From assembly GCA_963969365.1 (NCBI GenBank), contig OZ017763.1, positions 1,426,001 to 1,490,000 on the forward strand: a stretch of 64,000 nucleotides of DNA, written 5' to 3'. The stretch is from Asterochloris sp. CNOR1. Taxonomy: Eukaryota > Chlorophyta > Trebouxiophyceae > Trebouxiales > Trebouxiaceae. Every line of letters begins with the position of its first letter. Within the stretch, counting starts at the first letter, position 1. Below are positions 18,628-40,728 of this stretch, piece after piece. A program made the position numbers and the translations under genes. The notes beneath the pieces are model-generated. The model searched no databases, was not told where the DNA came from, and worked only from the letters and a program-made list of their open reading frames with translations.

Positions 18628-21600
18628 ATGCCATCCAACGGAAGTACTGCCTCTGGGCCTCCAGCATCAGGGCTGAAACAGAAGCTGAGCAAACTAACTT
18701 CCAGGCAAGCTTGAGGCTTTGCTCTGCCTGAGTGCACACCACGTGGCTGCTGATTCAGATCAGCCAATGTGACACACAGGCCCCAGGTTGTGCACACATA
18801 CCTCCATATGAAAATGCAGGGGAGCTGCTGGCAGGAAAACAGCGCCAAATACTTCGCTCCCTGATCTTGCCGCCAGCAAGTGGGAGGGAGACACGGACTT
18901 GGAGGCTCAGAAGGCGTTGCTAGATCCCAAGGTGTGCAGACTGTAACAAACAGATGAGGACAGAAGCTGCAGCAGGTCAGCTGTAGATGCTCATTGCTGT
19001 ACATGGCAAGCTGCACATCTCTTTGTCCTGTTGGCTGCAGAAGCTGAGAGGGTGGAGCTTGCTGCTATTCTCTTTTGGAATATTGGGTGTGGTTTATGTC
19101 GAATTGGGTGAGTCAAGTTCAGTGACGTTGCACATGTGAACCACTGCAAAAGCCATGACAGCGCAATCAACAGCAGCTGTAGTGTGAAACACTGGTGCCT
19201 GTGGCTGTGCACTTGGTTTGTCTGTAGAAACATAGCCAACTGCAAGGCAGTTCTTGACATGCCAGGGGCTGCTTGCCATATACGCAGGTTTGCTCTTACG
19301 AGCAGCTGTCATTTTACCCAGTGGTTATGCGCAGAGATATCCCGTTGTATGTCTTTCCCACCATCTTTCATGAAGCCCCTACAGAGGCAGATGTCGTGGG
19401 TGCTGTATCCCTCATCATCTGGACCCTCAGTGCCATCCTGATCACTAAATATGCTTTGATTGTAATCAGAGCTGACGACAATGGCAGGTGGGAGGCATGC
19501 TGTTGTCTAAGCTGAACTGGCAGTGACATTGATGTAAGCATGTGGAGCGTCATCTACGTTGCTTTGTAGCCCGTCTACACCTTTGATGGCCAAGCCATTG
19601 GTGAGCGCTTTCAGCCTGGTCAAGGGTGGGAGGTTGATGCCCACCCTGTCGTGCTTCAGTGTGTCTTGCTGCAGGCTTCTTCAACTGCCTGAGGCTCACT
19701 GGAGTGCGGTGCTGGTGCTTAGCAAGGTCTAAAACCTGCAACTGTGGTTGACCAGCACCCAGCACCAAATAAGGCATTGCCGACCAGATTCATCACCGTT
19801 GCAGCAAGCATTGATGGCCTGTGCCTGCATTTGAGACATGCCTGCCTCCATGCAGGGAGGCGTTGTTGCACTGTATCCCCAGCTGAAGAGAGCAGGCAAT
19901 GTTTGCGTCTGCAATCAGGTCAAACAGGAGGAGCCTGATGTGGTCGGGTGCGTGGGCATATGCTGAATGCACAGCATTGGCTCGTCAAAGGCGTGCTAGG
20001 CCTTCTTTGACAGTTCTAGTGACTGCCTCAGCCCCATCTGCTGGATGAAGTGGTCCCAAACACATCGCAATGTTGCTGCCCGTGATATCGACTCAGCATG
20101 GATAGGGTTGTTGAGGGCATCACCTTCGAAGGAATTCCAGTCTGCGGTTGAAAGCTGAAGAACGTTGCAATGTGAGCCTGCAGCTACAGCTCATATGGGC
20201 TCTGCTTGCTGCAGAAAAATGCCAGTTGGTGGGGCAGAGAAGCTCAACAAGCTATGTTCAGCCAGCCATGCCACTCATGGATGGCGTACCAGGCTGGCTT
20301 GCAATGGCACTTACCAGAGGGTGAGCACGGGGCAGTGCTGTTGATGCACACATCTGCTAGGTCTGCCTTGTCAAATAGCTGCAGGCACTAACAGCTTTGC
20401 AGATCTAGCTCCTCCGTCTTCCATAAGGCGATGGGCCGGCTGGGTTTGGTTTCCTCTGATATTGCAAAGCTGCATAACAGTTGCTGCTATCGTTGGAGGT
20501 CAGTGGACAGCAGCTTTCCCATGCGCATGGTCTGCTCATGGCTCTGCCCATTCAATGCAGGTGATCATGGTTCTGGTGGTATTTGGCGTGGGGGCCATCA
20601 TGGGAGATGGAGTCCTAACCCCAGCAATCAGCATTGTGTCAGCCATTGACGGCGTTCAAACCTCATTCCGTTCCGTCACAGGAAGTAAAGCATGTTGACT
20701 GATCCTGAGAAAGACTGATTCAATGGGCCTAAGTTGCTCAGCAACACTGTCAGCTCAGTTGGTGCTTGATTCCTTGCTGATTCACAGCAAATGTGGAGCA
20801 ATCATCAGCAGAGAGGCTGATTGCTGTCAGCTGTCTCAAAGTTGCTCTGTGGGTGCAGACACGATTGTCATCATCTCAATAGGCATCCCGCTTGTACTTT
20901 TCAACATTCAGCGGTGAGCCAGACCTTTTGTCAATGTCTTCAGCTGTAGCAAGCCATCGACGGAAGGCACACAGCACAGCTCCAGGCTACAGAGCGCTGC
21001 AGTTAGCTGAGTCTGTTAGCATGTGCAGATTTGGGACCAAGTTCATCCCTGTTCAGTCCAATAATATTCATCTGGCTTTCTGCGAATGGAGCGGTGAGGA
21101 GTTCTCAGAGCAACTGCCTATATGCACTGCTATTGTCGCTGGATTTGTAGTGCAAATGCTTGGTGTCTGCTGGTCATACACTGGCGCCATGCAGTTGTAG
21201 TCAGTATTGCTTGATGAGGTGCTCTGGACTGTATGCTGCAGATTGGGGTCTACAATATCATCAAGCACAATCCCGCGGTCCTCCGCGCATTTGGGCCAAA
21301 TTACTGGTAAACAGGCTGTGCCGCTTTCAATAGTTTTCTGACTCCTGCACAGTCTGACCGGGCTGGTGTCCACTCTTGCTCACCACCACCCTCCCTTATG
21401 TTGGCACTTCTACAGTTCTCAAATGCTGTGCAGGTTTGACTACTTGCTGCTGCGGGGATCCGAGGGATGGAAGTCACTTGGAGTCGTGCTTTGCATCACA
21501 GGAGTGAGTGACACTCTGCCTGGGCAGCACAGCCCTCAAGGGAACCTTGCGGTCCTGGTAGCTGGCTTGCATGGAGTATCGAGGATAGCTGACTGGTGGC

Positions 21601-24600
21601 ACTGCCTGCAGACTGAGGCGCTATTTGCTGATCTCGGCCACTTCAGCCGTCATGCCATCCAGATCAGCACATTCTGCTTGTTGTGGCCCTCCCTGATGCT
21701 GACGTACCTGGGGCAGGCGGCGTACCTCACGAAGCAAGTCACTCTCAGCATGTTGCCCTTTTGCAGCATGCAGTGTGCAAGCTAGTGCCTGCTAGCAGAG
21801 AGGACAGCGCTCACAGCTGATTGTCTGCTTGCTGGCATTGTAGCTAGACCATAGAATCGTGCAATCGCATGCTATGCACCAGAGATGTAATGCTGGCAGG
21901 TACCCTAAGGACTGGAGCCTCGCTTACTTCCGCTCTGTCCCCCACTCCTTGCACTGGCCAATGTGGGCAATCTCAATCATGGCAGCAATCATAGCAAGTC
22001 AGGTTTGTGGCTGCTTGAGACCAGTTTCAGAAGACTGCCTGCAACCGCCTCAGACGGCACCTGCTCTTTGTTTGGTCACTGACCTGTCTGAATCCGGTCT
22101 GACTCTGGCAATCATCTCCCTGCAGAGATTGCTGTTATCACAGTGTCAGCACTATTGATTCTCTTCATGAAAAGACACCATGCATGCCTCAGAGACACCA
22201 TGCATGCCCAGGCAGCTCAAGGGACATGTGACGCATTGCAAGGTTGTGTCACTCCAACGCTTATCTCTGTTTTGCACTGCTGCAGGCTCTTATCTCAGCT
22301 GTGTTCAGCATTGTCTCAAGCCATAGCTCAGGTGAAATGCAGCTGCTGACACTACACAATGTTGTACAGTCACTGACAGCTCAGGCTGATGATGCAGGGC
22401 TTCTTCCCGCAATTTCATGTGTATCACACATCAGACCACGTGATTGGCCAGGTCTGCCTGCCTTTGCTGGCAGCCTGGGGCCGAGCTTTGGACCCTCACT
22501 GATCCCCCATACACCTGCTTCCTGTCGTTTGTTGCATTGTGCAGGTTTATGTGCCAGTCATCAACTATCTACTGATAACTCTCTGCCTGATAGTTGTTGG
22601 AGTTTTCAGGACAAGTGCCAAAATGGGATCAGCCTATTGTGAGCTTGCTCTGCCTGTCTCTCAGCCAGGATCCATATGTCTGGGAGGCATGCACTCAAGA
22701 AAATTTGCTTGTGTGTGAGGCACTGACTGGGGTCTGCTGGGCAGCAAGGCGCCCTCCATAGTTCATATTTGAAATGGCATAGGCAGACCAGAACACCTGT
22801 ATCTAGATTTAACATGCCTAGACTCTGGCTGCAGGATTGGCTGTTGTTTGGGACATGCTGCTGACCACCAACTTTGTGACTATGGTCATGCTAACAGTCT
22901 GGAACATCCCCGCAGCCATCGCTTTCACCTTCTATACTGTGTTTTTCATGATTGAGGCTGTGTACTTCTCTTCTGTTCTGGTGAAGATTCCCACAGGCAT
23001 GCCTGCCGTTCTGTCATTGCACTTTGCTGATATCATGCAAGCCAACCTTGAGACCAGTGTGCAATCATACATTGCATGCTTGTTATAGTTATAGCTTCGA
23101 GAGCTGATATGTTGGTCACAAAGCTCACATATCATGACCCCAACATTGTTTTTTGGTCACCGCACCACCACCCTCACACTGCATTCTTGCTCATGCAGGC
23201 GGTTGGTTCTCCATCATGCTGGCTGTCATCTATGCCAGCATCATAATGCTCTGGTTTTGGGGCAGTCGCCAGAAGGACTATTACTTTGGCCACAAGTTTT
23301 TCTCTAGCATCAAGACGCTGCCCCAGCTGATCCACAGCATGCCACCTGTGGGCAGGAATGACTTTCAAGTTGGCGGTGACGAGGAGCAGGAGCGCCTGTT
23401 TGTGGCTCCCAACTAGCAGTTGGTCAGCATGCCTTGCTCAGGACACACTGTCATGCACCATGCACAATCTTGGCTGCTGGACGGGTTCAAGGTCTTTGAT
23501 GCCAGCAAGAGGCGCCTCTTCATGGGTGCACTGCACTAAGCAGCTATCCACACTGTAGCCATTGCTTTGCAAAGCTCATTTTTGTGATGCAAAAGTCTGG
23601 CGGTTGTTGCGCTATCAGAAGTGTATGCTTTTGGAAATGATCATTGCACCCAGTGTTTGCTTCACGCAAATGTGGACCTGAGTCTTCATGCTGTGGGAGT
23701 GATTGCGCTTTCTGAAGCGCTCTGTGCTGCTTGCAAACCACAAGCTTGCCTGACCCTTGTCAGCCTGCAGGTGTGAGGGAAGGCAACGTCAATGGTTTAC
23801 TACGCCATAATTAGCAGCATCTGCTGCAGGAACAGCCCTGCCATTGCAAACTTTCATTGGAACTGTACCTGGCTGCAGGTCCCCCAGATTCCTGGCACTG
23901 GGCTGTATTACTCAGAGACCATTGATGACTCCCTCCTGTGCTGGTCCAGCACCTGACAACGTTACCAACGTTACACAAGGTTTGTTATTGCACTGTACCC
24001 TGAACCCTCTGCTGTATGACGGCTATATCTGTGCCCAGACCCCTGGCTCCCATGTCTGGTCTTCCTCTCACGTGATGCTTCTTTCTCCCCTGGTCTCCCA
24101 TACTGAGCTTGCTGTCAGCGATTGCCCAAGAAGGATGCCTGGCTGTGCACAGCCTGCATGAGCATGGCTTTCACAGCAGTTCCACAAACACATGTCAAGG
24201 TCAGGACCGATGCAGGTCAACATAGTAGTGACCAACAGGTTTGTGACGCTTCCAGTGGTCTTCGAACATGAGCGTTTCCTGGTGGAGTACTCTCTCCCTG
24301 TCTGGTATGTATCATGTCATTGCTCGCTACGGCTACAACCAAAATGTTCAGCAGGATGCAGCCTTTGTGCGGGGCATGCTGGAGCACACAGGGATTCTGC
24401 TCTACCAGTTTCTCAAGATGAGCATCGGCGCATCAGAGGATCTGGAGCCAGTGCTGGCACAAGGGCCGATTTCCTTGAGCACTCTGGTTGCAGCAGGTAG
24501 ACTGTTGCATAGCTGCAACTTCGCTCTAGCAGCGCCCCGTCTGCAAGTATATCATGAGAGACAGCAATTGCTCCTCTCTTGCAGCTGCACTTCTGCAACT

Positions 24601-25202
24601 GATGCCAGTAGCATGCATTTTTATGTTGATGAGGTCCAGGAACTGCAAACAGCATTTCTGGGCGCCGACCTGAGATGGTGACGGTTACATTGCAGGCACT
24701 GAGACAGAGGCACCTTTGAATACTGCTGCCATCAGTGACAATATCAAGCAAAGCCTTGCAGGTGAGCTGTGTTGCAACCTCTCTCTCCCAGTACAATTTC
24801 AAAATGAGCTGCATCAAGTTGGCATGCAATTGGCTTCTGGGCTCAGCAGCTGCTCTGCTGCCGGCAGCTCAAGTTATCCTAGTTCTATTTTCTGCTGTCT
24901 AGCAATTGTGCAATGCGTGACATCATGACGTGTTGCCTGGCGTTCTGCTTGTTTTTGGACAGGTGCACACTGCTACATGTTGCCTGACAGAGTCTGCTTG
25001 TGGCTGTGCAGATGTGCCTCAGGCCTCCCCCCGCCAGTCTATGCTGGCAGAGGGCGCAAACCCTCATGGGCACCTCCTGGCAGAACTGGGCAGGCTGAGT
25101 CTGAAATTCAGCACACTGGAGGCTCGTTACAGCATGACTCCAAGGAGCAACCAGCACATGTCCACTTTGCCAAGTGTTGAAGGATTGGCGGTGGCTGGCT
25201 AG
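18628..25202 (+). CDS. KUP/HAK/KT potassium transporter, C-terminus interrupted by a copia insertion
   Basis: K+ uptake permease (TC 2.A.72) of the plasma membrane. Recognised exons: 18628-18704 and 18877-18931 (N-terminus, joined by a GC donor, inferred), 19041-19107 (WSLLLFSFGILGVVYVEL), 19337-19487 (IPLYVFPTIF, then VSLIIWTLSAI, ALIVIRADDNG), about 19856 (GGVVALYPQLKRAGNV), about 20562-20687 with the signature GAIMGDGVLTPAISIVSA, about 20852-20914 (VIISIGIPLVLF), 21242-21310 (IGVYNIIKHNPAVLRAFGPN), then WKSLGVVLCITG, ALFADLGHFSRHAIQ, the exon with GFFPQFHVYHTSDHVIGQ, VPVINYLLITLCLIVVGV, LLTTNFVTMVMLTVWN, YYFGHKFFSSI, and the cytoplasmic tail with HVIARYGYNQNVQQDAAF. The exon starting at 25012 runs into the copia LTR after 25174 and stops at 25202 after nine foreign residues. 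About 119 C-terminal residues are displaced beyond the element. The joint 19487/19856 is out of phase as read. Confidence 0.85.
25170..25174. repeat. Target-site duplication CCAAG, left copy
   Basis: CCAAG immediately precedes the TGTTG terminus at 25175 and recurs at 29755-29759 directly after the other terminus. It comes from the KUP exon. Confidence 0.95.
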
Positions 25203-25432
25203 CAAATGTGTTACAGAAGTTAAGTGTGTGTGTGGCCCAAGGCCCTTATATACACTGGTCAACGGTCAAGCATATTAGTTCATGGAAGCTGCTATGAGTT
25301 GATGTGAAGGCTCCAGAAGAGTCTGTTCCAGAAGCTTCTTGAACATGCAGGGTAGATTGCAGAATGTTCTTGACCAGTGTGGGACACTCTCACAGGCTGG
25401 ACTGGCATGTCTGGTCTGACTGCCTCTCAACA
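25175..25432 (-). repeat. Copia-1 3' LTR
   Basis: 258 bp, terminal TGTTGAAGG...CTCAACA on the plus strand. It contains a TATA-like ttatataca on the plus strand (tgtataa on the element strand) about 90 bases from its U5 end. Its U5 end reads CCTTCAACA, unlike the 5' LTR. Confidence 0.95.
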
Positions 25433-25479
25433 CTCCCACGCAGGCTGTGATGGGTGTCCAGGACTTTGAGGCCGTGTTG

Positions 25480-27501
25480 TCAGTTAAGTAGCCCCAAGCC
25501 GTCGCGACAGAAGGTGTGCTTGCCTTCAGCCACAGGCTTGGTCAGGGAGTCTGCCAGCATGTGCTCTGTTTTCACATACTCGAAGGCCACCTCCTTGCGT
25601 GCCACTCTCTCCCTTGCAAAGTGGTAGATGACGTCAATGTGCTTGGACCGTAAGGATGTGATGGGGTTCTTGAGGAGCTTGACAGCCCCTTGGTTGTCTG
25701 CACGGATGGTGATGGTGCTGACTGTCCTCTGTAGGTCATCGATGAGCTTGCGAAGCCAGAGGGCCTCCTTGGTAGCAGCTGCTACTGCCATGTACTCTGC
25801 CTCTGTTGTGGATGCCGCAGCTGTCTGCTGGCGCCGGCTTGACCAGGTGATGGCACCTCCGTTGAGTATGAAGACGTAGCCGGTGGTTGAGCGTCTGGTG
25901 TCAAGGTCTCCAGCGTAGTCTGAGTCACAGTAGCCCAGCAGCTGGTTGCTGCTGTTGCCTCTGCCAAAGCAGATGCCTTGGCCTCTGGTACCAGCGAGGT
26001 AGCGCAGAACTCCAAGGGCCGCTGCCCAGTGGATGGTGGTTGGTGTTGTCATGTATCTGGCCAGGGCTCCCACGGCTTGCGCAATGTCTGGCCGTGTGCA
26101 CACTGCCAGGTACATGAGGCTCCCAATGAGCTGGCTGAAGCCATACTTGTGCTTGTCCAAAGGCTCCCCCTCGTCCTTGGTCAGCTTGGTGGAGGCTGTG
26201 AGCGGCACTGACTTGGGCTTGGCATCTTGCATCTGGTACTTGGAGAGCAGCTGGGTTGTCATGCGCTGCTGGCTGAGCTTGAGGCTCTGCCTGGTGCGGT
26301 CGCGCTCGATCAGCATGCCCAAGTAGATCTGTGCCTCCCCCAGGTCCCTTGCCTCGAAGGCTGTCATGACCTTCCTCTTGGCCCACTCCACAGAGGAGAG
26401 GCTCTGAGCCGCAATGAGGATGTCGTCGACGTAGACCAGCAGGTGGATGGTGTCTTCTTTGCTGTGGTAGCTGAAGAGGCCAGGGTCAGCTTCTGACTCT
26501 GTGAAGCCAATGGCCTCCAGCTCCTGCTTCAGGCGAGCATGCCACTGCCGCGGAGCTTGGCGCAATCCGTACAGAGCGCGGTGCAGGTGGCAGGCCAAGT
26601 TGCCGGGTCCCTCCTTGTAGCCAGGTGGCTGTTGCAGGTAGAAGTCCTCCTCAATGGTGCCGTTGAGGAAGGCTGTTTTGATGTCCAGCTGGTGCAGCTC
26701 CAGGTCCTCAGCCGCCACAATTGCCAGCAGTGTCCTCAGCGTGGCGTACTTGCTGACTGGTGCAAAGACCTCATCGAAGTCGATGCCTTCACGTTTTCTG
26801 TAGCCCTTGGCCACCAGCCGTGCCTTGTAGCGCTCTGCTCCGCCGTTGGCTGCTGTCTTCACTTTGAAGACCCACTTGACTGGGATGGCTTGAAGACCAG
26901 GTGGTAGCTCCTCCAGCGTCCAGGTTTTGTTTGCCATGAGAGAGGCAATCTCCTCGTCCATGGCTTGCTGCCACTGCTCCGCTTCCTCTGAGGCCATAGC
27001 TTCTTCGTAGGTGTCTGGCTCCATGAGGGTGGCTGACGTGGCGTTTGCTGTGTCACACTTGGAGCTGAAGCTGGCATTGGTTCCAGCAGCAGTTGGCTGC
27101 TTCCACCATTCAGATGGCGGGCGTGGCTCTGGTGGATCGGCGCAGAGTGGTCTGAGGCTGAGGTGCTGGTGGTTGGTCTGAGTCTGGCGGCTCCTCTGGC
27201 AACTCCTGATGCACCAGCACTTGCTCTTCTTGAGCTTGCTCCTCAGGGTCTGACTCAGAGTCGTCAGCCTCCCACTGTGGAGCATGTTTGCTACCGATGC
27301 TGGTGACTCCAGTGCCCTCATCAAAGATGACACTTCGGCTGATGATGACTGTCTGGTTGTCCAGCAGTATGCGGTAGCCCTTGGTGCTGTCTGGGTAGCC
27401 CACCATGACTCCACGGATGCTGCGGTTGTCCAGCTTCTGCCTCTTCTCCTCAGGTAGGTGGCTGTAGGCTGTTGCTCCAAAGGTTCGCATGTGGGAGACA
27501 T
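25480..27501 (-). CDS. pol: Copia-1 Pol part: RT and RNase H
   Basis: The frame after the frameshift encodes the reverse transcriptase and RNase H: VKWVFKVKT, RLVAKGYRKREGIDFDEVFA, QLDIKTAFLNG, GLRQAPRQWHARL, LLVYVDDILIAAQ (the YVDD polymerase site), VLRYLAGT, then RNase H with GYCDSDYAGDLDTRRSTTGY, WSSRRQQT, AEYMAVAAATKEALWL and the tail DSLTKPVAEG. The useful reading begins near 27125 where the 2-base deletion moves the frame; residues encoded before that are out of frame. Confidence 0.93.
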   Translation of the reverse strand: MSPTCEPLEQQPTATYLRRRGRSWTTAASVESWWATQTAPRATAYCWTTRQSSSAEVSSLMRALESPASVANMLHSGRLTTLSQTLRSKLKKSKCWCIRSCQRSRQTQTNHQHLSLRPLCADPPEPRPPSEWWKQPTAAGTNASFSSKCDTANATSATLMEPDTYEEAMASEEAEQWQQAMDEEIASLMANKTWTLEELPPGLQAIPVKWVFKVKTAANGGAERYKARLVAKGYRKREGIDFDEVFAPVSKYATLRTLLAIVAAEDLELHQLDIKTAFLNGTIEEDFYLQQPPGYKEGPGNLACHLHRALYGLRQAPRQWHARLKQELEAIGFTESEADPGLFSYHSKEDTIHLLVYVDDILIAAQSLSSVEWAKRKVMTAFEARDLGEAQIYLGMLIERDRTRQSLKLSQQRMTTQLLSKYQMQDAKPKSVPLTASTKLTKDEGEPLDKHKYGFSQLIGSLMYLAVCTRPDIAQAVGALARYMTTPTTIHWAAALGVLRYLAGTRGQGICFGRGNSSNQLLGYCDSDYAGDLDTRRSTTGYVFILNGGAITWSSRRQQTAAASTTEAEYMAVAAATKEALWLRKLIDDLQRTVSTITIRADNQGAVKLLKNPITSLRSKHIDVIYHFARERVARKEVAFEYVKTEHMLADSLTKPVAEGKHTFCRDGLGLLN

Positions 27502-29380
27502 CCGGCTTCTGACCGAAGAACAGCTCCCACGGGGTCCTTAGCTTCTTAGCAGCAGGTGAGCGACACCTGATGTAGTTGGCTGTGTTGACAGCTTCTGCCC
27601 AGAGCTCCTTGGGCAGCCCAGCGTCACTGAGCATGGCCCTGGCCCGCTCCATGAGTGTGCGGTTGAGCCTTTCGGCCGCGCCATTCTGCTCTGGGGTGTA
27701 GGGAACGGTTGTCTGGTGGAGTATGCCTCTGGACTTGAGGTACTGGGTGAGCTCTGTGTTGACATACTCGCGCCCGCTGTCTGTGCGGATGGCTTGCACT
27801 CTCCTTTTGGTCTGGTTCTCCAGCAGGTGAAGGACTTCGCGGACCGTTGTGGTTGTTTCTGACTTGTAGGTGATGATCCGGACGATGGACAGCTTGGAGA
27901 AGTCGTCCAGGAAGGTGGCCACATACTTGCTTCCACCGAGTGAAGGTACGGGCATGGGCCCGCATAGGTCCATATGTAGAAGCTCCAGAGGTTCTGTGCT
28001 CTCCCGCTTGGAAGCTGGGAATGGCGCCTTGTGGTGCTTGGCCAGGATGCAAGGCTCGCAGACTACTGCCTTTGCAGCCTTGAAGTCCCTCTCAGGGACC
28101 TTGATGCCATCCACCATGTCCTCACGGACCAGCGCCTCCAGGTTGTGGTAGCCAAGGTGCCCAAAGCGGCGATGCCAGAGCTCTGCTGTCTCTGGCTTTG
28201 GGGTGGCCGCCAGTGCTGTGGCTGCATCCCTCAGGCTTGGGATGTAGTAGAGGCCATTGGGCCCGCGCTTGGCGGCACCAATGTCTCTGCCATGCTGCCT
28301 GATGGAGCAGCATGTGGGCCCAAAGTTGAACTTGGTGCCCCGCCCAGTTGCCGTGGTGATGGAGAACAGGTTGGCGGCTGCTGTTGGGATGTAGAGAACA
28401 CCCTTCAGCACAATGGTTGCTCTGTCTGTCTCCAAGAGAGCATCGCCCATGGCCTGGGCCTCGCCAATGGTGCCATTGGCAAAGCAGACCGTGATGTTGC
28501 GGTCTGCTGCCCTGACGTTGCTGAGCAGGTCCTTGTTGCCTGTGATGTGGTTGGATGCTCCTGAGTCCAGCACCCAGTCCATGTCCCAGTTGACGACTGT
28601 GGCCCCCATGGCAGCCACGTTGCGGTGGCCACTGTCTCCCATGCTGGGATTGGGGCCACTGGAGCTCCAGCGTGCCCAGCTGTGCCCTCTCTGCTCGTCC
28701 CGCTTCTTCTTCTGACACTCTGCCTTGAGGTGTCCCCGCTTGCCACAGCACCAGCACTCCTTGGCATTGCCTGAGCTGCCAGTGCCAGCTCTGTGCTGTG
28801 GCTTGCTGGCCTTGTTGGTGAAGAGGGCACGGTTGTCAGCCCTTTCTCCGCCGCCCAGTCGCTGCTCTGCTTGCAGCAGGTTGGCCAGCACGGCCCCCAG
28901 CTCCAGCTTGCTATCTGTAATCTCCAGGACAGCCACGACGGTGTCAAACTCCCTGGGCAGCCCAGCCAGGATGCACATGATGAGCTCCTGATCCTCCACA
29001 GTGTGGCCAGCGGCCAGCAGCTGATCCCGCATGTCTGTGGCCCGGTTCACGTACTGGACCAGAGGCTCATGGGGCTCCTTGCGTAGGCTGTTGAGCTCTC
29101 TCTTGAGGTGTAGCTGCCTTGCTGTGCTCTTGGCTTGGTAGACTGCCTCCAGCTTCTGCCAAGCCTCTGCTGCTGTCGTTGCCTTGGACAGCATATGTAG
29201 GTGGTGGTCCTTGACGTGGAGAGACAGCTGAGCCAATGCCTTCTCGTCTGCTCCAGCCTTGGGCTCACCCTGCCCGGACACAGCGCCCCAGAGGTCCTTG
29301 ATGGTGAGGAAGGCCTCCATCTTGACGCTCCATACAGCATAGTTGTCTGTGTCCAGCTTGTCAATGTCCACATTGGTCAT
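27110..29380 (-). CDS. gag-pol: Copia-1 Gag, protease and integrase
   Basis: Start taken at the ATG at 29380-29378 (MTNVDIDKLDTDNYAVW); an open frame extends back into the LTR without ATG. Gag follows with WQKLEAVYQAKSTARQLHL, a zinc knuckle CWCCGKRGHLKAEC (CX2CX4HX4C), the aspartic protease motif WVLDSGASNHITG, the integrase HHCC region (HRRFGHLGYHN, CEPCILAKHH) and a DDE core (MDLCGPM, IRTDSGREY, TPEQNGAAERLNRT). The frame ends at 27110 because two bases are missing in the run that reads GAGCCCCACGCC in copia-2. Confidence 0.93.
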   Translation of the reverse strand: MTNVDIDKLDTDNYAVWSVKMEAFLTIKDLWGAVSGQGEPKAGADEKALAQLSLHVKDHHLHMLSKATTAAEAWQKLEAVYQAKSTARQLHLKRELNSLRKEPHEPLVQYVNRATDMRDQLLAAGHTVEDQELIMCILAGLPREFDTVVAVLEITDSKLELGAVLANLLQAEQRLGGGERADNRALFTNKASKPQHRAGTGSSGNAKECWCCGKRGHLKAECQKKKRDEQRGHSWARWSSSGPNPSMGDSGHRNVAAMGATVVNWDMDWVLDSGASNHITGNKDLLSNVRAADRNITVCFANGTIGEAQAMGDALLETDRATIVLKGVLYIPTAAANLFSITTATGRGTKFNFGPTCCSIRQHGRDIGAAKRGPNGLYYIPSLRDAATALAATPKPETAELWHRRFGHLGYHNLEALVREDMVDGIKVPERDFKAAKAVVCEPCILAKHHKAPFPASKRESTEPLELLHMDLCGPMPVPSLGGSKYVATFLDDFSKLSIVRIITYKSETTTTVREVLHLLENQTKRRVQAIRTDSGREYVNTELTQYLKSRGILHQTTVPYTPEQNGAAERLNRTLMERARAMLSDAGLPKELWAEAVNTANYIRCRSPAAKKLRTPWELFFGQKPDVSHMRTFGATAYSHLPEEKRQKLDNRSIRGVMVGYPDSTKGYRILLDNQTVIISRSVIFDEGTGVTSIGSKHAPQWEADDSESDPEEQAQEEQVLVHQELPEEPPDSDQPPAPQPQTTLRRSTRATPAI

Positions 29381-29482
29381 CTTGGTCCCAGGTGTAGTCT
29401 TGCCTTCCTTTGCTGTGCCCACTCCTCTGGTGGTTGGCTCCTTAAGGCAGAGACGGCTTCTGTGGCTAGCAGCCGGCGAGGA

Positions 29483-29496
29483 CTGGGCCCATAACC
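29483..29496 (-). other. Copia-1 primer-binding site (half initiator tRNA type)
   Basis: On the element strand the 5' LTR is followed directly by GGTTATGGGCCCAG, complementary to the anticodon stem-loop side (CTGGGCCCATAACC) of eukaryotic initiator tRNA-Met rather than to a tRNA 3' end. Drosophila copia is known to use this half-tRNA priming. Confidence 0.8.
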
Positions 29497-29754
29497 TGTT
29501 GTATGATTGGCGGTGGCTGGCTAGCAAATGTGTTACAGAAGTTAAGTGTGTGTGTGGCCCAAGGCCCTTATATACACTGGTCAACGGTCAAGCATATTAG
29601 TTCATGGAAGCTGCTATGAGTTGATGTAAAGGCTCCAGAAGAGTCTGTTCCAGAAGCTTCTTGAACATGCAGGGTAGATTGCAGAATGTTCTTGACCAGT
29701 GTGGGACACTCTCACAGGCTGGACTGGCATGTCTGGTCTGACTGCCTCTCAACA
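29497..29754 (-). repeat. Copia-1 5' LTR
   Basis: 258 bp; its U5 end on the element strand reads ATCATACAACA, followed by the primer site. Compared with the 3' LTR it differs at one internal base (gtaaagg/gtgaagg) and in the U5 tip. Confidence 0.95.
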
Positions 29755-29759
29755 CCAAG
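29755..29759. repeat. Target-site duplication CCAAG, right copy
   Basis: Second CCAAG. Leaving out the element and one copy restores a continuous KUP reading frame across the junction. Confidence 0.95.
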
Positions 29760-30575
29760 GTCCATTCTCTGCAGCATGGGACCTGACCTTTGCGAGCAGC
29801 TGGGGCAGCTCGTCACACAAATCAACTCAGACCAGGTGGGCTCTTGCCTCGCCAATTGTTGTGCTGTCCCTGTCTATTGGCCAGCCGGCCAGTAAATGTC
29901 TGGCCGACTCTGCTTGGCAATCAGCTGCAGCAGACATGCTTCATAGCATTGTCTAGCGCCAGCCAGCTTTAGACCCTGTCTGCCCAGCCCTTCTGTATAT
30001 GGTTTGCAAGCACTTCTCACTGCTGCCTCCACTGACAAGCCATTTCCCCACTGCAGCTGCACCAGGTGCAAGGGGCCTGCAACACGTCGGTAAAAAAGAT
30101 TTGGCTGCTTGCAAGGGAGATCGCCCTGCAAGAACAAGAGCTAGAAGACGAGTCTAGGCCCACTGTCCTCATCATGGGCAGAGCTCATGTAAGGCTTCGA
30201 ATGGACAGCAACTGGTGAGTCTGTTGTACCTGTACAGTCCACACACAGTCCTCCGCAAAGCCAGCTAATGTATATAGCAACAATTGATATCAAGCAATAC
30301 CACCACGCAAGTCAGGCCAGGTTGCAATACATTGCGCAGTTTACAGGGTGCAATGTACCTCCTGAGCACATATGCCCAAACTGCATGGCATCACTGCTCT
30401 GCGTTGCCGCTTGATGAACACAACAAAGACTTGTGGTGCTGACTGCAGGTCGAGACGGTACTTGCTCGAATCCCCGTATCAATGCATAGTCAACAATACC
30501 AAAGCAGATGCCTATAGGACTTTTGGGGTCCCTGAGGCCAATTTGTCTGAGCATGGCATGGTCTATGTTGTCTGA
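29760..30575 (+). pseudogene. Orphaned C-terminal exons of the KUP transporter
   Basis: Three exon pieces follow the copia element: 29760-29835 (the rest of the split exon, GPDLCEQLGQLVTQINSDQ), 30057-30214 (KKIWLLAREIALQEQELEDE, TVLIMGRAHVRLRM) and 30449-30575 (NNTKADAYRTFGVPEANL, ending HGMVYVV and TGA). The joints are in phase with each other and with the exon before the insertion. The MVY-containing terminus is the normal KUP/HAK end. With the element present they are reachable only if the whole 4.6 kb is skipped or spliced out. Confidence 0.88.
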
Positions 30576-30799: not shown

Positions 30800-32520
30800 T
30801 TGTCACTTTATTGTGACACATTTTGACCTCATGAAGTCCTGACAACCTTGCACTTCGCCACAGGGCCCAAGTCCATAGCAATCATATAATCTCTGGGCCA
30901 CAGCCAGAATAATCAGCCTTGACAAGTTGTCTCTGCCTTTCTGATCAAGGCTTCTTCAAAGAATCATAGGGACTGATATCCTTCAGATGAGCACGAATGC
31001 TGCTGAGCAGCAGTAAAGACAGCAGCAGACCATGTGTGATCTGACAAAATCCCGACTATCAAATTGCATGTATAGGGTAACGCTTCCATACAAAGCAGGA
31101 GAGCAGGCAGGGTGTACACGTTTGCTCAAGTCAACTGCTGCATCTAAGTAAGTCACAGGCAGTCAGCCTTGTAAGAGAGGCATCCTGAAGAGCACCCATG
31201 TTGCCGCTTGCTGACCGCTGCTATGTGCAATAAGAATCAGCCGATCAAGCAGTGTGCAAATGTGGAGGGGAAAAAAAGGGGCTGGCCCCTGGCCTCAACG
31301 GATGCAATGGCCTATGAAGTGCGCATTGTGCACAGGCGAAGGGTTACATACGAAACAATGATGTGATGTTGCAGCAGGCCAGCGGCCGAGAATGAGCACA
31401 GCGATCAGCTCTGCATGCTGACTAGTAGCGGGCTGACATGTGCTGGTTGCGAAGCACATCAGTGACAGCCCCCCTGCGACTTAGCTGCCAGTGAAGGCGT
31501 TCATTGGTGCCGCACAGCCTCAGCCTGCAGTGCTGCAGGCCGCTGCACCAGGGCCAGCTGCGTCACAAGCAGGCCTCAGCGTAGGTGGGTGATGCCTGCC
31601 TGTGACTAAGCTGCTCTCATCTGACTACTACACAGCTCTCGGGCATCTGTAGGCTGAGGTGACTGCTAACTATTGTATGGTACAGTAGTTTCAGAAAATT
31701 TATGTACTTGCTGCGACACCGTCAGCCTACTGCCAAACACTCTGGCCAAGGACTTGCCTCCCGCGTATCTGCAACTGCTGCCAGGGAAGTGATGCCCCGC
31801 CAAAGCACTGTCATCATGAGCATGCTGGAAGCTGCAGCCCGTTCCAGAGACCACCATGAAACCTGAATGGCCCTGCAGCAGTCATCAGGAGGTGAGGGCT
31901 AAGGAAACCTGAGAAATGCTCTTCTGTTGAGTGTCATGTTCACGTGCGACAGCGAGCAGGCTGCGAAACCTGCCGTCGAGAGAGGCTGAACCAGAGGGCC
32001 TGGCCTAGGCCCTCTTGATTGTGGCACAGTTCAGGGTGCACTCCAAAGACTCCGGGTGGCGCTAGGTTCGCAAGTTTCTGAAGCCGAGGGGGCTCCCGAA
32101 ACTCTGCGACTTTCGACCCGTGGATAAGTGTCATCTAGCTCTGCTTTTGGCAGGGCTTTTGCACAAGAACCCCCCGGTCACATGCCAGAGCTAGGTGCAC
32201 GGCCCACTTTGCAAGTTTTCGGTCCCACAATGCTACCCAAGTTTCTCCTTATATCTGCCGCTGCAGCTAAGTCTCAAGAAGATATCACGACCCCTCCGCG
32301 ATGGACCTGCAGGTGTGGTTTGCACCCGGTCGCAGCAGATCAGCATGCTAGCTGTTAAAGTTCCAGCTAAGCTAGCTCGCAGACTAAGCCTGGCTTGTAT
32401 AGGAGGCAGACGTTGTGGCCCCAGGGGACCAAGCTATGGCTCAGGGACTACATGATTACTCTGTACGTCGGTGCCTCAGCTCTGTTCAAGCATAAAGTGT
32501 TCTAGGTCAAGCAGATAAGA
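30800..32520. other. No recognised gene
   Basis: Only short open frames on both strands, none with a motif I know. A poly-purine stretch (ggggaaaaaaaggggctggccc) is at about 31267. This is the interval between KUP and the retrotransposon cluster. Confidence 0.5.
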
Positions 32521-32761
32521 TGTGGCCCAGGGGTTACATGGTTGCTACTTGGGCCCTGAGGCCAGCTACAAGGATGTGAGGTGTGTGAAGTATGAGAGGT
32601 CTGCTAGCAAGGTGAACAGAGTGCTATACATACTATGTTATCATTAATATTTTTAAAGGTAAGCTCATGGAAGGTTCTGGCAGGTGCAGTGGGAACTTCT
32701 GGCAGGTGAGTAGAAGTGTCTGGCAGGTCTGGTAGGTTCTAGTAGGTAGCTGTGTGCTACA
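32521..32761 (-). repeat. Gypsy-A1 3' LTR
   Basis: Plus-strand TGTGGCCCAGG...TGTGCTACA. It matches 34270-34506 and the two LTRs of copy 2, with a few substitutions and small gaps; it is more diverged than the copy-2 pair. Confidence 0.9.
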
Positions 32762-33034
32762 TCCTTCCCCCCCTTTGATACTGAAGCTCCTTGGGGGGGC
32801 TCCATGTTGTGTGGCGCACGTTGGGATGTGCCAAGTGCGTTCGTTGCGTTGCTGTGGTCCAATGTGGTCTGCATTGGTTGCTCAGGTCCTTGGATCTTTT
32901 CCGCAAGGTGCGCTGTACCCAGGTGATGCTCTCTGCGATGGTGTTGTCCTTGGGGTCTCATTTGGTCCACTGTGATCTGTGATGGGTGTCCAGGTCCTTG
33001 GATTCTTGTCCGCAAGGTGCTCTGTGCCCGGGTG

Positions 33035-33180
33035 GTCTCTGCGATGGTAAGGTCTCTGCGATGGTGTGGTCTCTGCGATGGCATGGCCTCTGCGATGGTG
33101 TTGTCTCTGCGATGGCATGGTCTCTGCGATGGTGTTGTCTCTGTGATGGTGTGGTCTCGGCGATGGTGTTGTCTCCGGTG
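33035..33180. repeat. 17-bp minisatellite, about 8 units (gypsy A1)
   Basis: Unit gtctctgcgatggtgtg with small variants (gcatg, tgtt ends), about eight full copies. Copy 2 has about four. Seventeen is not a multiple of three, so the three reading frames are visited in turn; on the element strand all units stay open (TIAET, PSQRP, HRRD). Confidence 0.9.
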
Positions 33181-33394
33181 TCTTAGGATGCATGATGTGG
33201 CACAAGCTGTTGTAGTCCTTGAGGTGTTGTGGTCTGGGAGTTGCTGCCCAAGGGTCACCCCTGCCTGAGCCGGTCCGCTCTAGTCTGCAAGGATGTCCCT
33301 TCTTGGACTTGGGTAGTCTTGGTCTGGGCTGTCGATATTGGCGTGGCTCTGCTGGCGCAGATCTGTGCCAAAGCTGTGTGATCAGGTTGGCCGG

Positions 33395-34219
33395 CTAGTC
33401 TCTGGGTTGCTCTTGTGCTGAAGATGTTGTTGGACGCACGGTGGCTGACGGAGTGCGCTCTCGAGCACGGTGCCCAAGTTGGTGGCAGCGGAAGCTCTGC
33501 TTGCCTCTGAGGAGGCGGTGTCGCTCTGTGGGTGGGCGTCTGGTCAGGGCACCCAGCTGCATGGATTGTGGTCCCAGGTAGGGAGGTGAAGGGGTTGGCC
33601 GGTTGATGTGGTAGGTGGGTCGTGTGTAGTAGAGAGCTGAGTCAGCGGCTTGTGCCAGGCGCATGGCGTCGTTGACGGTGGATGGCCGCTTCTGCTCCAC
33701 GTGGAGGCGAATCTGGGGCTTCAGGCCTTTCACAAACTGGTAGATGGCGTCCGCGGGGTGCATGTGTGGAACTTCCAGGTGTAGGCCTGAGAACTGGTTG
33801 GCGTAGTCTGTGACAGAGGTGCGTTGCCTGAGGTTCTCCATGTTGTCTCTGGCGATGCGCTCAGCATCAAGGGTCTGGAAGGCCTCAAGGAAGGCACCCT
33901 TGGATGTTGTCCAGGTGGTTGGTGGGCTTCCGGAAATTTCTTGGGTGCGCCACCAGGTTCTTGTAGCTCCTATGAGGAAGGACACGGCGTGGGGCACGGC
34001 CTGTGCGGTGCCCAGGAGTCCCGAGAGGGTGAGGTAGAGTGTCATCTGGTGCAGCCAGTTGGATGCTGCACCACTGCGGTGGTCTCCTTGGAACTTGTCT
34101 GGCTTGGGTGGTTTGGGTGGCTTGGGTGCTGAGTGGACAGCCTGCTGTGTGCTGAGCTGCTGTAGGGCACTGGTGGCTGTGATCAGGGAAGCCTCGAGCT
34201 CCATGATCTTGGCTTGCAT
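33395..34219 (-). CDS. gag: Gypsy-A1 Gag
   Basis: Retrotransposon Gag of the gypsy type: QQLSTQQAVHSAPKPPKPPK, SNWLHQMTLYLTLSGLLG, RTWWRTQEISGSPPTTW, RTSVTDYANQFSGL, VPHMHPADAIYQFVKGLKPQ. The start is the ATG at 34219-34217, because the ATG used in family B (MDPAAMQ) is ACG here. The zinc knuckle is degenerate (FRCHQLGHRARERT, lacking the first and last Cys spacing of CX2CX4HX4C). Confidence 0.85.
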   Translation of the reverse strand: MQAKIMELEASLITATSALQQLSTQQAVHSAPKPPKPPKPDKFQGDHRSGAASNWLHQMTLYLTLSGLLGTAQAVPHAVSFLIGATRTWWRTQEISGSPPTTWTTSKGAFLEAFQTLDAERIARDNMENLRQRTSVTDYANQFSGLHLEVPHMHPADAIYQFVKGLKPQIRLHVEQKRPSTVNDAMRLAQAADSALYYTRPTYHINRPTPSPPYLGPQSMQLGALTRRPPTERHRLLRGKQSFRCHQLGHRARERTPSATVRPTTSSAQEQPRD

Positions 34220-34269
34220 GGCTGCTGGGTCCGTGGGGAATGATCGAACAGAACCCTCCGAAACCAAGT

Positions 34270-34506
34270 TGTGGCCCAGGGGTTACATGGTTGCTATGGA
34301 CTTGGGCCCTGAGGCCAGGTACAAGGTTGTGAGGTGTGTGAAGTATGAGAGGTCTCCTAGCAAGGTGAACAGAGTGCTATATATACCAATTATGATCAAT
34401 ATTTATAAAGGTAAGCTCATGGAAGGATCTGGCAGGTGCAGTGGGCACTTCTGGCAGGTGAGTAGAAGTGTCTGGCAGGTCTGGTAGGTTCTAGTAGGTA
34501 GCTGTG
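34270..34506 (-). repeat. Gypsy-A1 5' LTR, end truncated
   Basis: Begins TGTGGCCCAGG and carries the TATA-like gctatatatacc. The last bases of the family-A LTR are missing and the sequence passes directly into TGCAGCACACTG, the start of the family-B LTR. Confidence 0.85.
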
Positions 34507-34712
34507 TGCAGCACACTGCTGCCTTCTAGACCCTACCAGACCCTATCAGAAGCTTCCACTGCACCTGCTAGAACCTTCCTTGATTTTCCTTTCCTTATGT
34601 TATAATAATATGAGAGTATATATAGCACTCTGGCACTTCACCAACATTCCTTGACACCTTTGAACACCGTCTCAGAGCCCACCGTCCACCGTACGTTGTA
34701 AGCGAGGCCACA
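34507..34712 (+). repeat. Gypsy-B left-arm 5' LTR
   Basis: 206 bp, TGCAGCACACTG...GAGGCCACA, with a TATA-like gtatatatagcac. It is followed by acttggtttcggagg, a primer region shared with family A. Confidence 0.92.
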
Positions 34713-34746
34713 ACTTGGTTTCGGAGGTTCTGTTCGATCATTCCCC

Positions 34747-36030
34747 ATGGACCCAGCAGCCATGCAAGCCAAGATAGGGGAGCTCGAGGCTTCCCTGGCA
34801 ACAGTCACCGGTGCCCTGCAGCAGCTCAGCACACAGCAGGCTGCCCACTCAGCACCCAAGCAACCCAAGCCACCTCAGCCAGAGAAGTATGAGGGAGACC
34901 GCCGCAGTGGTGCAGCATCCAACTGGCTGCACCAGATGACACTCTACCTCACCATCCTGGGCATCCTGGACACCGCCCACGCCATCCCCCACGCAGTGTC
35001 CTTCCTCATCGGAGCTGCCAGGACCTGGTGGCGTGCTCAGGAAGCTTCTGGAAGCCCACCAACCACCTGGGCAGCCTTCAAGGCCTCCTTCCTTCTTGTG
35101 CACGAAGAGGATGGGTGCTCCAAAGGGGGACTTGCTGGGCTTGATGAAGCCCTTCTCCAGCAAGTCGTCCAGCTGCTTGCGCAGCTCTCCAAGCTCCACA
35201 GGGGACATGCGGTAGATGCCCTGATATGGTTGGGCGCCGCCAGGTTCCAGGTCGATGTGGTGGTCAACGTCCCTCCTTGGTGGTAGTTTACTGGGAAGAG
35301 GCTGGAAGACGCCTTGGAGAAGTATGAGGGAGACCGCCGCAGTGGTGCAGCATCCAACTGGCTGCACCAGATGACACTCTACCTCACCATCCTGGGCATC
35401 CTGGACACCGCCCACGCCATCCCCCACGCAGTGTCCTTCCTCATCGGAGCTGCCAGAACCTGGTGGCGTGCTCAGGAAGCTTCTGGAAGCCCACCAACCA
35501 CCTGGGCAGCCTTCAAGGCCTCCTTCCTTGAGGCCTTCCAGACCATCGATGCTGAGCGCATGGCCAGGGACCGCATGGAGAACCTCAAGCAACGCACCTC
35601 TGTCACAGACTACGCCAACCAGTTCTCAGGTCTGCTCCTGGAAGTTCCAGAGATGCACCCTGCGGACGCCGTCTACCGCTTTGTGAGGGGGCTGAAGCCC
35701 CAGATCCGCCTCCACGTGGAGCTCCAGCGCCCAACCACTGTCAACGACGCCATCCGCTTGGCACAAGCTGCTGACTCAGCACTGTACTTCACGCGGCCCA
35801 CCTACCCTGTCAACCGGCCGACACCTTCACCTACCTACATGGGGCCACAGCCCATGCAACTTGGCGCTCTGACCCGCCCACCCAAGCTCTCACCAGCAGA
35901 GCGTGAGCGCCTGTACAGAGAGGGCAGGTGCTTCCGCTGCCGCCAGCCTGGACATCTTGCTGAGGAGTGCACCTACTTCAACACCACGCGCCCCACATCA
36001 TCCTCATCACATGAGCAACCAAAAAACTAG
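34747..36030 (+). pseudogene. gag: Gypsy-B left-arm Gag, scrambled
   Basis: Starts MDPAAMQAKIGELEASLATV, then SNWLHQMTLYLTILGILDTA. After 35092 the sequence becomes the reverse complement of the RT start (up to about 35314), then gag restarts at EKYEGDRRSGAASNWLHQ and runs through RTSVTDYANQFSGL, PADAVYRFVRGLKPQ to a good zinc knuckle CFRCRQPGHLAEEC and ends at 36030. The first part of gag is therefore present twice and the continuous Gag is destroyed. Confidence 0.88.
35088..35316 (-). repeat. Inverted internal insert in gypsy-B left-arm gag
   Basis: The segment is the reverse complement of about 36722-36948 of the same arm (start of RT), inserted in gag and followed by a second copy of 34885-35093. 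The first junction has a short shared tccttc; the second has a base or two. Confidence 0.9.
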
Positions 36031-36107
36031 CTGGCCAGCCTGGTCACACAGGCTTTGGGCACAGAGCTGCGCCGGCACACATCCAAAGCCACATCGGAGT
36101 CGCCACC

Positions 36108-36704
36108 ATGACAACACCACCATGCCACCCAGACCTGCTCATCCTTCAAGGCACCTGCGCCGGACACCCTGCCAACATCCTGGTGGACTCAGGTGCCTCC
36201 ATGGACTTCATCAACCACCGCTACATGGCCAAGCACAGACTACCCAAGACCAAGGAAGACCCCCATGGGCGTGTCACGCTTGCAGACGGCAGCGTGCGCC
36301 CATGCACCCAGATTAGCGACAACACCGTCACCCTCAGTGGCTACCAGACCTCGTGCCACCTCCACGTCACAGACCTCGGCCCCCATGATCTCATCCTGGG
36401 ACAACCATGGCTCCAGAGCAACAACCCTGACATCGACTGGGCACAGCGCACCTTTCGGCCAAGAATCCAAGGACCTGAACGCCCAACACAGATCATAGTG
36501 GCCCCCAGCAGTGAGGCACCAAGGACAACTTCTTCTAAGGACATCCCAGTCATCTCCTCGTTGCAAGCCTCCAGAGCACTCAGACACGGCGCCAGCGGCT
36601 ATCTTGCCCTGGTGCGCACCGCAGAGACAACCACCGCAGAGACAACCACCGCAGAGACAACCACAGTGACCCCGGCACCACAGACTTCACACGCCCAGCT
36701 CTAG
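36108..36704 (+). CDS. pro: Gypsy-B left-arm protease region
   Basis: Aspartic protease with NILVDSGASMDFINHRYM (DSG active site), then a second hydrophobic block DLILGQPWL. It ends at an in-frame TAG (36702-36704), directly followed in the same frame by the RT reading [11 protein letters not shown] 15-bp repeat (accgcagagacaacc, three units, 36622-36665) lies just before. Confidence 0.85.
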   Translation: MTTPPCHPDLLILQGTCAGHPANILVDSGASMDFINHRYMAKHRLPKTKEDPHGRVTLADGSVRPCTQISDNTVTLSGYQTSCHLHVTDLGPHDLILGQPWLQSNNPDIDWAQRTFRPRIQGPERPTQIIVAPSSEAPRTTSSKDIPVISSLQASRALRHGASGYLALVRTAETTTAETTTAETTTVTPAPQTSHAQL

Positions 36705-36707
36705 GAG

Positions 36708-38157
36708 GTGCTGAACCGGCACCAAGGCGTCTTCCAGCCTCTTCCCAGTAAACTACCACCAAGGAGGGACGTTGACCACCACATCGACCTGGAACCTGGC
36801 GGCGCCCAACCATATCAGGGCATCTACCGCATGTCCCCTGTGGAGCTTGGAGAGCTGCGCAAGCAGCTGGACGACTTGCTGGAGAAGGGCTTCATCAAGC
36901 CCAGCAAGTCCCCCTTTGGAGCACCCATCCTCTTCGTGCACAAGAAGGACGGCGGCCTGCGGATGTGCATCGACTACAGAGCGCTCAACAAAATCACTGT
37001 GAAGAACCGCTACCCCATTCCACGCATTGATGACCTCCTGGACCAACTCAATGGCGCCAAGGTGTTCTCCAAGCTGGACCTGGCCAGTGGCTACTGGCAA
37101 GTCCGCATCGCTGAGGGCGACACGCACAAGACGGCCTTCCGCTCACGCTATGGTCACTTTGAGTTCCTGGTGCTACCCTTTGGGCTCACCAATGCGCCAA
37201 GCACGTTCATGACCCTCATGAATCAAGTGCTCAGGCCCTTCCTGGACAAATTCGTCGTGGTCTACCTTGACGACATCCTCATCTACTCCAAGTCCCCTGA
37301 GGAGCACGCGCAGCATGTGGAGGCTGTGCTCAGTGCCTTGGAGCGGCACCACCTCTACGCCAAGGCCTCCAAGTGCCAGTTCGGCATGGCTGAGCTGGAC
37401 TTCCTTGGCCACACCATCAGCGGGGCAGGCATCAAGGTGGACGCAAGGAAGGTGAAGGCCATTCTTGATTGGCCTGACCCCTCAGACGCACACCAACTCC
37501 GGTGCTTTCTGGGCCTCGCGGGCTTCTACCGGCGCTTTGTCAACAGGTTCTCCCACATAGCAGCGCCACTGACCAACATCACCGGCGCCAAGGCAACTTG
37601 GCGATGGAGCGAGGTGGAGGCCAAGGCCTTTGCTGAGCTCAAGCATGCTCTGACAACCACACCAGTCCTGGCCACACCTGACTTCGCCTACCCCTTCGAG
37701 CTCTACACAGACGCCTCCCAGTTTGCCATCGGGGCCACGCTGCTTCAGGACCAAGGCAATGGACTTCAGCCCATCGCCTACGAGTCTCGCAAGCTCAACT
37801 CCGCCGAGCGCAACTACCCCATACATGAGCTGGAGCTACTGGCGGTGATCCATGCTCTTCGCACATGGCGCTGCTACCTGGAAGGATCCAAGTTCCGCGT
37901 CAACTCAGACCACCTCAACCTCAAATACCTCACCACTCAGCGCAACCTGTCCCGGCGACAAGCTCGCTGGCTGGAGACACTCCAGCAGTTTGACCTGGAC
38001 ATCCACTACAAGGCGGGCAGTGACAACCTCGCAGACCCCCTCTCCCGCCGCCCAGACCTCCATGCCATCACTGGCACCTTCCAACACAACCTTATGGAGC
38101 TTATCAAGTCGGCCTACGAAGGCGACACCTACCTGGAGGAGAGTGGAAGGCAAGTGC
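36708..38157 (+). CDS. pol: Gypsy-B left-arm reverse transcriptase and RNase H
   Basis: [65 protein letters not shown] and [13 protein letters not shown] (YLDD). RNase [48 protein letters not shown]. The frame stays open to 38258, but after about 38157 it reads the reverse complement of the other arm's integrase, so the last 30 or so residues are foreign. Confidence 0.93.
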
Positions 38158-39999: not shown

Positions 40000-40037
40000 C
40001 TCCTAGAGCTGGGCGTGTGAAGTCTGTGGTGCCGGGG

Positions 40038-40589
40038 TCACTGTGGTTGTCTCTGCGGTGGTTGTCTCTGCGGTGGTTGTCTCTGCGGTGCGCACCAGGG
40101 CAAGCTGGCGCCGTGTCTGAGTGCTCTGGAGGCTTGCAACGAGGAGATGACTGGGATGTCCTTGGAAGAAGTTGTTCTTGGTGCCTCACTGCTGGGGGCC
40201 ACTATGATCTGTGTTGGGCGTTCAGGTCCTTGGATTCTTGGTCGCAAGGTGCGCTGTGCCCAGTCGATGTCAGGGTTGCTCTGGAGCCATGGTTGTCCCA
40301 GGATGTGATCATGGGGGCCGAGGTCTGTGACGTGGAGGTGGCACGAGGTCTGGTAGCCACTGAGGGTGACGGTGTTGTCGCTAGTCTGGGTGCATGGGCG
40401 CACGCTGCCGTCTGCAAGCGTGACACGCCCATGGGGGTCTTCCTTGGTCTTGGGTAGTCTGTGCTTGGCCATGTAGCGGTGGTTGATGAAGTCCATGGAG
40501 GCACCTGAGTCCACCAGGATGTTGGCAGGGTGTCCGGCGCAGGTGCCTTGAAGGATGAGCAGGTCTGGGTGGCATGGTGGTGTTGTCAT
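40038..40589 (-). CDS. pro: Gypsy-B right-arm protease region
   Basis: The same NILVDSGASMDFINHRY protease as the left arm. It differs by one missing Asn codon (SNPDIDW instead of SNNPDIDW) and a frame disturbance near the C-terminal repeat. The TAG before the RT frame is conserved (plus-strand cta at about 40003). Confidence 0.8.
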   Translation of the reverse strand: MTTPPCHPDLLILQGTCAGHPANILVDSGASMDFINHRYMAKHRLPKTKEDPHGRVTLADGSVRPCTQTSDNTVTLSGYQTSCHLHVTDLGPHDHILGQPWLQSNPDIDWAQRTLRPRIQGPERPTQIIVAPSSEAPRTTSSKDIPVISSLQASRALRHGASLPWCAPQRQPPQRQPPQRQPQ

Positions 40590-40723: not shown

Positions 40724-40728
40724 GGTGC
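40724..40728. repeat. Target-site duplication GGTGC of the nested solo LTR, left copy
   Basis: GGTGC directly before TGTGGCC; the second copy is at 40935-40939 directly after TGCTGCA. Confidence 0.9.

Follow-up and report, generated by a model that had tools for sequence, protein, structure and literature searches.

The genome of Asterochloris mediterranea, one of the closest systems described, is given in the available part of its report (PMC12542154) as 57 Mb on 18 chromosomes, most of which carry one LTR-rich locus; these loci were called centromeres without CENH3 data, and the elements named for the putative centromeres are RLG_Beelzebufo, which has a chromodomain, and RLG_Kyoko, which has gag only. 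In the main text of that report the word 'copia' does not occur, and 'RLC' occurs a single time, where the fungus is meant. Copia elements at centromeric loci are described in the available text of PMC11005252 for Chlorella sorokiniana NS4-2 and Chromochloris zofingiensis, the centromeres of C. sorokiniana being confirmed there by CENH3 ChIP. Zepp clusters are described for Coccomyxa subellipsoidea (PMC3446292), and ZeppL in Chlamydomonas (PMC8226300) is a further green-algal precedent, both as far as the available parts of these sources go. Among titles and abstract openings, in a search that mostly left subscription papers aside, no further account of a centromeric copia element in Asterochloris came up. 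Retroelement clusters as putative centromeres, made of gypsy elements, are already published for Asterochloris; the confinement of a copia family to such clusters is the addition made here.

The genome assembly comprises 56,383,464 bp in 21 contigs, 18 of them large and three small (43, 110 and 215 kb). The window, i.e. the whole stretch of 64,000 nucleotides that was analysed, corresponds to positions 1426001-1490000 of contig C18, and coordinates given without a contig refer to it. A relic of a KUP potassium transporter gene (18.9-30.6 kb) lies in it at the edge of the retroelement cluster of C18 (25-50 kb), and to the left of the relic lies a UDP-sulfoquinovose synthase (14.5-16.7 kb; a partial protein, below the full-length cut-off).

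Structure of the insertion

A Ty1/copia element of 4,580 bp (- strand) lies between two copies of CCAAG in a C-terminal exon of the KUP gene, antisense to that gene. Its 3' LTR (25175..25432, -) and 5' LTR (29497..29754, -) are 258 bp long each and read TGTTG...CAACA, and the target-site repeat CCAAG is found to the left at 25170..25174 and to the right at 29755..29759. The 5' part of the split exon (25012..25174, +) is an open frame that matches a single exon of the paralogue on C15 as well as the predicted A. glomerata protein P0241. On joining the flanks with one CCAAG the frame resumes in the 3' part (29760..29835, +), which leaves 129 codons open in a single frame from one side of the junction to the other; the C15 exon is unbroken here and spans the insertion junction with 43% identity over 79 columns. 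The penultimate exon (30057..30214, +) shows 54% identity to C15 over 52 columns, and the last exon, which contains the stop codon (30449..30575, +), shows 86% over 22 and 74% over 19 columns to two matching C15 exons. The occupied frame ends nine codons past the junction at a TAG within the LTR (25200..25202, +). The coding sequence lost amounts to 76 + 158 + 124 nt, or 119 codons, with exon ends read by eye, the spliced alignment starting one of these exons, the penultimate, 16 bases later (30073). The insertion is real and the exons on either side of it belong to one gene, so that the initial annotation, which had described a copia element with duplicated CCAAG splitting a KUP exon, a frame restored by removing it with one CCAAG, a truncated reading ending nine codons into the LTR and a loss of about 119 residues, is borne out in its geometry by the LTRs, the flanks and the C15 matches on both sides.

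Besides the TG...CA LTR pair and the target-site repeat, the element has the integrase upstream of an RVT_2-type reverse transcriptase, which places it in Ty1/copia. The open frame from gag to integrase (27110..29584, -; 824 aa) carries Retrotran_gag_2, gag_pre-integrs, rve and SH3_retrovirus, and the reverse transcriptase frame (25480..27501, -; 673 aa; RVT_2) is not in phase with it. In the copia proteins no chromodomain was found at E 0.01. The probable primer binding site GGTTATGGGCCCA (29484..29496, -) directly adjoins the 5' LTR and presumably is of the kind seen in copia/Ty5-type elements, which are primed by half of an initiator tRNA. A search of the genome for a matching host initiator tRNA gave 0 matches with the exact pattern and 0 with a longer one; a one-mismatch pattern gave 5 matches, and the four of these five loci that were scanned held no tRNA gene. 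The nearest named matches of the integrase (27.3-28.3 kb) were Rhodomonas salina (58%), Chromochloris zofingiensis (57%) and Micractinium (51%). A special tie to the centromeric copia of Chromochloris was considered for the 57% integrase match and dropped, since the integrase tree of 13 rows (12 of the listed matches and the window) does not resolve the placement. A second copia copy in the window (45636..50048, +) has one frame of 1363 aa and an internally deleted 3' LTR.

Condition of the transporter locus

The KUP/HAK/KT locus (18857..30575, +) comprises about 20 exons and encloses the copia element; it was delimited by PF02705 exon matches and by aligning KUP homologues and the C15 paralogue to it in spliced form. 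The K_trans domain PF02705 was found across the exons; K_trans_C (PF22776) gave no match at the locus, and among the five paralogues matched in C7 and C12 only. Among the 120 homologue matches listed of 4783, the best were from Trebouxia at 46-47%, and none was from Asterochloris; the homologues thus indicate a trebouxiophyte alga. The genome holds six KUP loci, that of the window and those on C7, C12, C15, C3 and C8.

Frame breaks were sought with a purpose-written aligner that places proteins on DNA across introns and penalises frameshifts; the profile used with it was made from seven of the nine homologues fetched (two near-duplicates of P0001 were left out). Compared with the C15 protein, the locus shows four frame breaks, at 21048, 22316, 23927 and 24288 (all +; numbered 1 to 4 here), and a TGA in the codon that the intron 22639-22834 interrupts (22638..22836, +), with the same count at penalties 28 to 24. 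At the strictest profile setting breaks 3 and 4 are called too, and breaks 1 and 2 are not. The profile alignment gave 2, 4, 5 and 6 breaks at penalties 28, 24, 20 and 16 for the window locus versus 0, 0, 1 and 1 for the five paralogues summed, the alignment of three of the five stopping before the tail at profile position 696 of 926; the sole paralogue break sits in C3, and no stop codon was seen in any of the five. At penalty 24 this corresponds to four breaks and one stop in 836 codons, versus 0 and 0 in 3589 codons of the paralogues, and the excess of breaks has P about 0.001 at equal rates (calculated by hand); at penalty 28, the strictest, with two breaks versus none, P is about 0.04 (likewise by hand). 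The initial annotation had proposed a search for a second intact KUP gene as a check; the five paralogous loci are without breaks or stops at penalty 24. No frame break was called 3' of the insertion in the spliced alignments. Laxer settings call a further break at 19488-19855; this stretch and that at 22332-22397 look like extra introns in places where the C15 paralogue is continuous.

A further comparison used the columns at which eight homologues and the C7 paralogue do not vary (194 covered of 196). In the window locus 26 of them are changed, versus 11 in C15; the changes unique to one copy number 17 versus 2 (p = 0.0007), or 12 versus 2 (p = 0.013) when adjacent changes count as one and the stop is excluded. 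The GDxGTSPLY motif is changed, part of these changes lying at an exon end where they may be alignment effects, and the open frame that a working member would have is lost. Because of the four frame breaks, the stop and the changed motif, the gene reads as a relic and not as a working transporter; the otherwise working transporter implied by the initial annotation does not agree with four breaks and a nonsense codon 5' of the insertion. Between the window copy and C15, Ka/Ks comes to about 0.18 (0.257/1.41; Ks is close to saturation), so the gene stood under constraint for the greater part of its past and decayed late.

Age of the insertion and order of events

Astpho2 (JGI) is the genome of Asterochloris sp. 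Cgr/DA1pho, i.e. of A. glomerata (PMC6652019, available part). P0241, a predicted protein of 180 aa from that genome and the one match among seven candidates with E up to 10, matches the KUP locus in four pieces at 96-100%. The window very probably comes from a different strain of Asterochloris. It reads through the split exon into the LTR and ends with exactly the nine LTR-read residues of the occupied frame; over its 180 residues it differs from the window by one replacement and by one more at break 4 itself. A second independent insertion at the same base and in the same orientation would be very unlikely. The insertion thus appears to be common to two strains and not private to one, as seen in A. 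glomerata in a predicted protein, and would be older than the split of the two. At the position matching 24288 the frame of P0241 is open, so break 4 of the window copy would be later than the insertion. The P0241 model begins in the exon that follows break 3, which hints weakly at a broken upstream part of the A. glomerata gene as well.

The LTRs of the element were initially described as differing at one internal base; they differ at three of 258 positions (25180/29502, 25182/29504 and 25306/29628). The two differences that lie two bases apart co-occur in only two of 30 LTRs examined, namely the 5' LTR of this element and the 5' LTR of the second copia copy of the window. The two copies differ by one substitution over element positions 213-2527, versus six before and 30 after this stretch, where some of the last few adjoin the deletion and may be alignment effects; the near-identical stretch of the two inverted copies corresponds to 27.2-29.5 kb and 45.8-48.2 kb of the window. 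Gene conversion between the two copies is probable from this pattern, and as the two paired LTR differences fit conversion, the LTR clock is set at one to three differences. Five other LTR pairs of the family lie about 4.3 kb apart; in the four that were compared (the C1 pair was left out) 5, 3, 3 and 2 differences were counted, and three of these pairs carry a matching target repeat. With 2 to 5 differences in these pairs the copy in the split exon is not unusually young, and the claim of a recent allele, which also conflicts with the junction in the A. glomerata protein, is not upheld.

Of the alternatives, the one that survives best holds that the insertion killed a working gene and that all other damage came afterwards. 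The late origin of break 4, the low Ka/Ks with C15 and the lack of any break called 3' of the insertion agree with it. At the invariant columns the window copy has 12 to 17 unique changes versus 2 in C15, more than the point estimates of the LTR clock would permit (12 changes: P = 0.0026 for three LTR differences, 0.00004 for one), whereas at the upper limits of the clock P is 0.24 and 0.04, respectively. This order of events is accordingly judged unlikely, though it keeps a real chance, and constraint on the KUP copy was probably, but not certainly, relaxed before the element arrived.

Genomic distribution of the elements

The copia family was traced with an LTR search (40 of 49 candidates scored), a reverse transcriptase search (all 25 scored) and a DNA search with the gag region (40 of 47), and gypsy elements with an RNase H search (all 47 scored) and a DNA search (40 of 46). 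With LTR, reverse transcriptase and gag pieces of one element counted apart, copia gave 89 matches on 15 chromosomes, namely all 40 LTR, all 26 reverse transcriptase and 23 of 45 gag-region matches, the other 22 repeating LTR places; none was found on C3, C12 and C13. For gypsy, 43 of 45 RNase H matches fall on 16 chromosomes in one cluster each, two divergent matches being left out, on C6 (53%, far from the cluster) and on C15 (37%, 14 kb beyond it). Taken together, the two families form clusters on 18 of 18 chromosomes, one each; no set extends over more than 50 kb, and their positions range from 0.16 to 0.82 of chromosome length. Both families are present on 13 chromosomes, and there they are located together. 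Some clusters are thin (one match each on C3 and C17, two matches 0.1 kb apart on C12). No copy of the copia family was found outside the clusters among the candidates scored, and the element therefore did not strike the gene at random.

Within the window, gypsy copies and pieces occupy 32517..44300 in both orientations, and two gag frames (33395-34267 and 43039-44052) carry gypsy gag domains. The one gypsy copy that was scanned, on C3, has an integrase chromodomain (PF00385, 26.6 bits against a cut-off of 25.1). C17 gave no match in the gypsy searches, yet a gypsy gag was found beside its solo copia LTR, and this gag was all that a search for gene remnants recovered in 5 kb around that LTR. 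A like search in 5 kb to the right of the window's cluster found one starch-binding domain only (CBM_20, within 50301-55300, -). This is too little to call the engulfment of genes at cluster edges general.

Single copia LTRs with 5-bp target repeats on C17 (L026, C17:488823) and C5 (L027, C5:1242808) are probable solo LTRs from recombination. Three copia LTRs occur in the same order at C2:2265408-2270393 (L019, L003, L015) and C10:1889150-1894131 (L018, L002, L006), with flanks that are the same or nearly so, as if the block had been copied between putative centromeres. Gypsy copies follow each other at regular steps at C2:2274413-2293440 (4625 and 3259 bp), C15:1098363-1107552 (4594-4595 bp) and C4:3177528-3187484 (4978 bp), which suggests tandem arrays built from a retroelement.

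The clusters are most likely centromeres. They might instead be safe havens of another kind, such as heterochromatic knobs or recombination-cold spots that occur once per chromosome, and their uneven extent, from single matches on C3 and C17 to 50 kb, would suit such sites. This is quite improbable in view of the single cluster on each of 18 chromosomes, of the two superfamilies sharing sites on 13 of them, and of the precedents, the same pattern having been taken for centromeres in Asterochloris (PMC12542154) and confirmed by CENH3 in C. sorokiniana (PMC11005252), as the available parts of both sources state.

Interpretation

As a whole, the observations are in all likelihood best explained by a cluster-confined copia element that hit a decaying spare KUP copy before the strains split. 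The family, all found copies of which lie in the one retroelement cluster per chromosome that is most likely the centromere, would home to centromeric chromatin or survive only there; homing to the putative centromeres is what we infer. One member integrated antisense into the C-terminal exon of the KUP copy at the edge of the C18 cluster, at a time when the sequenced strain and A. glomerata Cgr/DA1pho would not yet have separated. That copy, one of six loci, would probably have been under weak constraint already and have decayed further after the insertion, a spare gene at the edge being one in which damage may be tolerated.

It is very improbable that the element marks a recent allele which costs a KUP transporter, functional in all other respects, some 119 residues of the cytoplasmic tail while the intact allele still circulates: the few LTR differences and the correct frame geometry are as expected from such an allele, but the same junction in a second strain and the decaying state of the gene, with breaks and a stop upstream of the element and an altered GDxGTSPLY motif, speak against a young allele that knocks out a working transporter, and four other LTR pairs are about as young. 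A misassembly of the element or of the frame breaks is extremely improbable, for although repeats are prone to it and the other assembly lacks break 4, the target repeat is perfect, the same junction occurs in an independent 454-based assembly, and assembly error is an unlikely cause of the breaks since the five paralogues are clean at the same setting.

Building on the preferred reading of a cluster-confined element in a spare gene, a wider one is offered tentatively and is, taken jointly, somewhat doubtful: a copia lineage without chromodomain would home by means of its own to algal centromeres, and the window would show a centromere growing over a KUP gene, invaded before the strain split, with later conversion between the copia copies that flank the cluster. 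The copia insertion by itself is an ordinary event of a known kind, unlike its location. An insertion shared by two strains, in a decaying gene at the edge of a cluster, would amount to gene loss beside a putative centromere, with the order of events given by a second strain. Centromere growth and copia homing can both be tested in this lichen alga, whose contigs are small and chromosome-scale.

Comparison with known systems

In its domain order (gag, integrase, then RVT_2), its TG...CA LTRs and its 5-bp target repeat the element agrees with Ty1/copia retrotransposons and shows nothing distinctive, its gag-integrase and reverse transcriptase frames being out of step. The Zepp clusters of Coccomyxa (PMC3446292, available part) likewise occur once per chromosome; Zepp is a LINE, whereas the elements here are LTR elements. 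As in Chlorella and Chromochloris (PMC11005252, available part), copia elements are concentrated at centromeric loci, putative ones in the present case; copia is a main component there, whereas here gypsy is prominent too and three chromosomes (C3, C12 and C13) are without a copia match. A. mediterranea, as described in the available text of PMC12542154, has the same genome plan: 18 chromosomes and 57 Mb there correspond to 18 large contigs and 56.4 Mb here, and both genomes have one LTR-rich locus per chromosome (on most chromosomes there), gypsy elements whose integrase bears a chromodomain, and gag frames that lack a pol frame. The gypsy families of the two are likened by description. Gypsy only is given there, whereas here a copia family is added to the elements confined to putative centromeres in Asterochloris.
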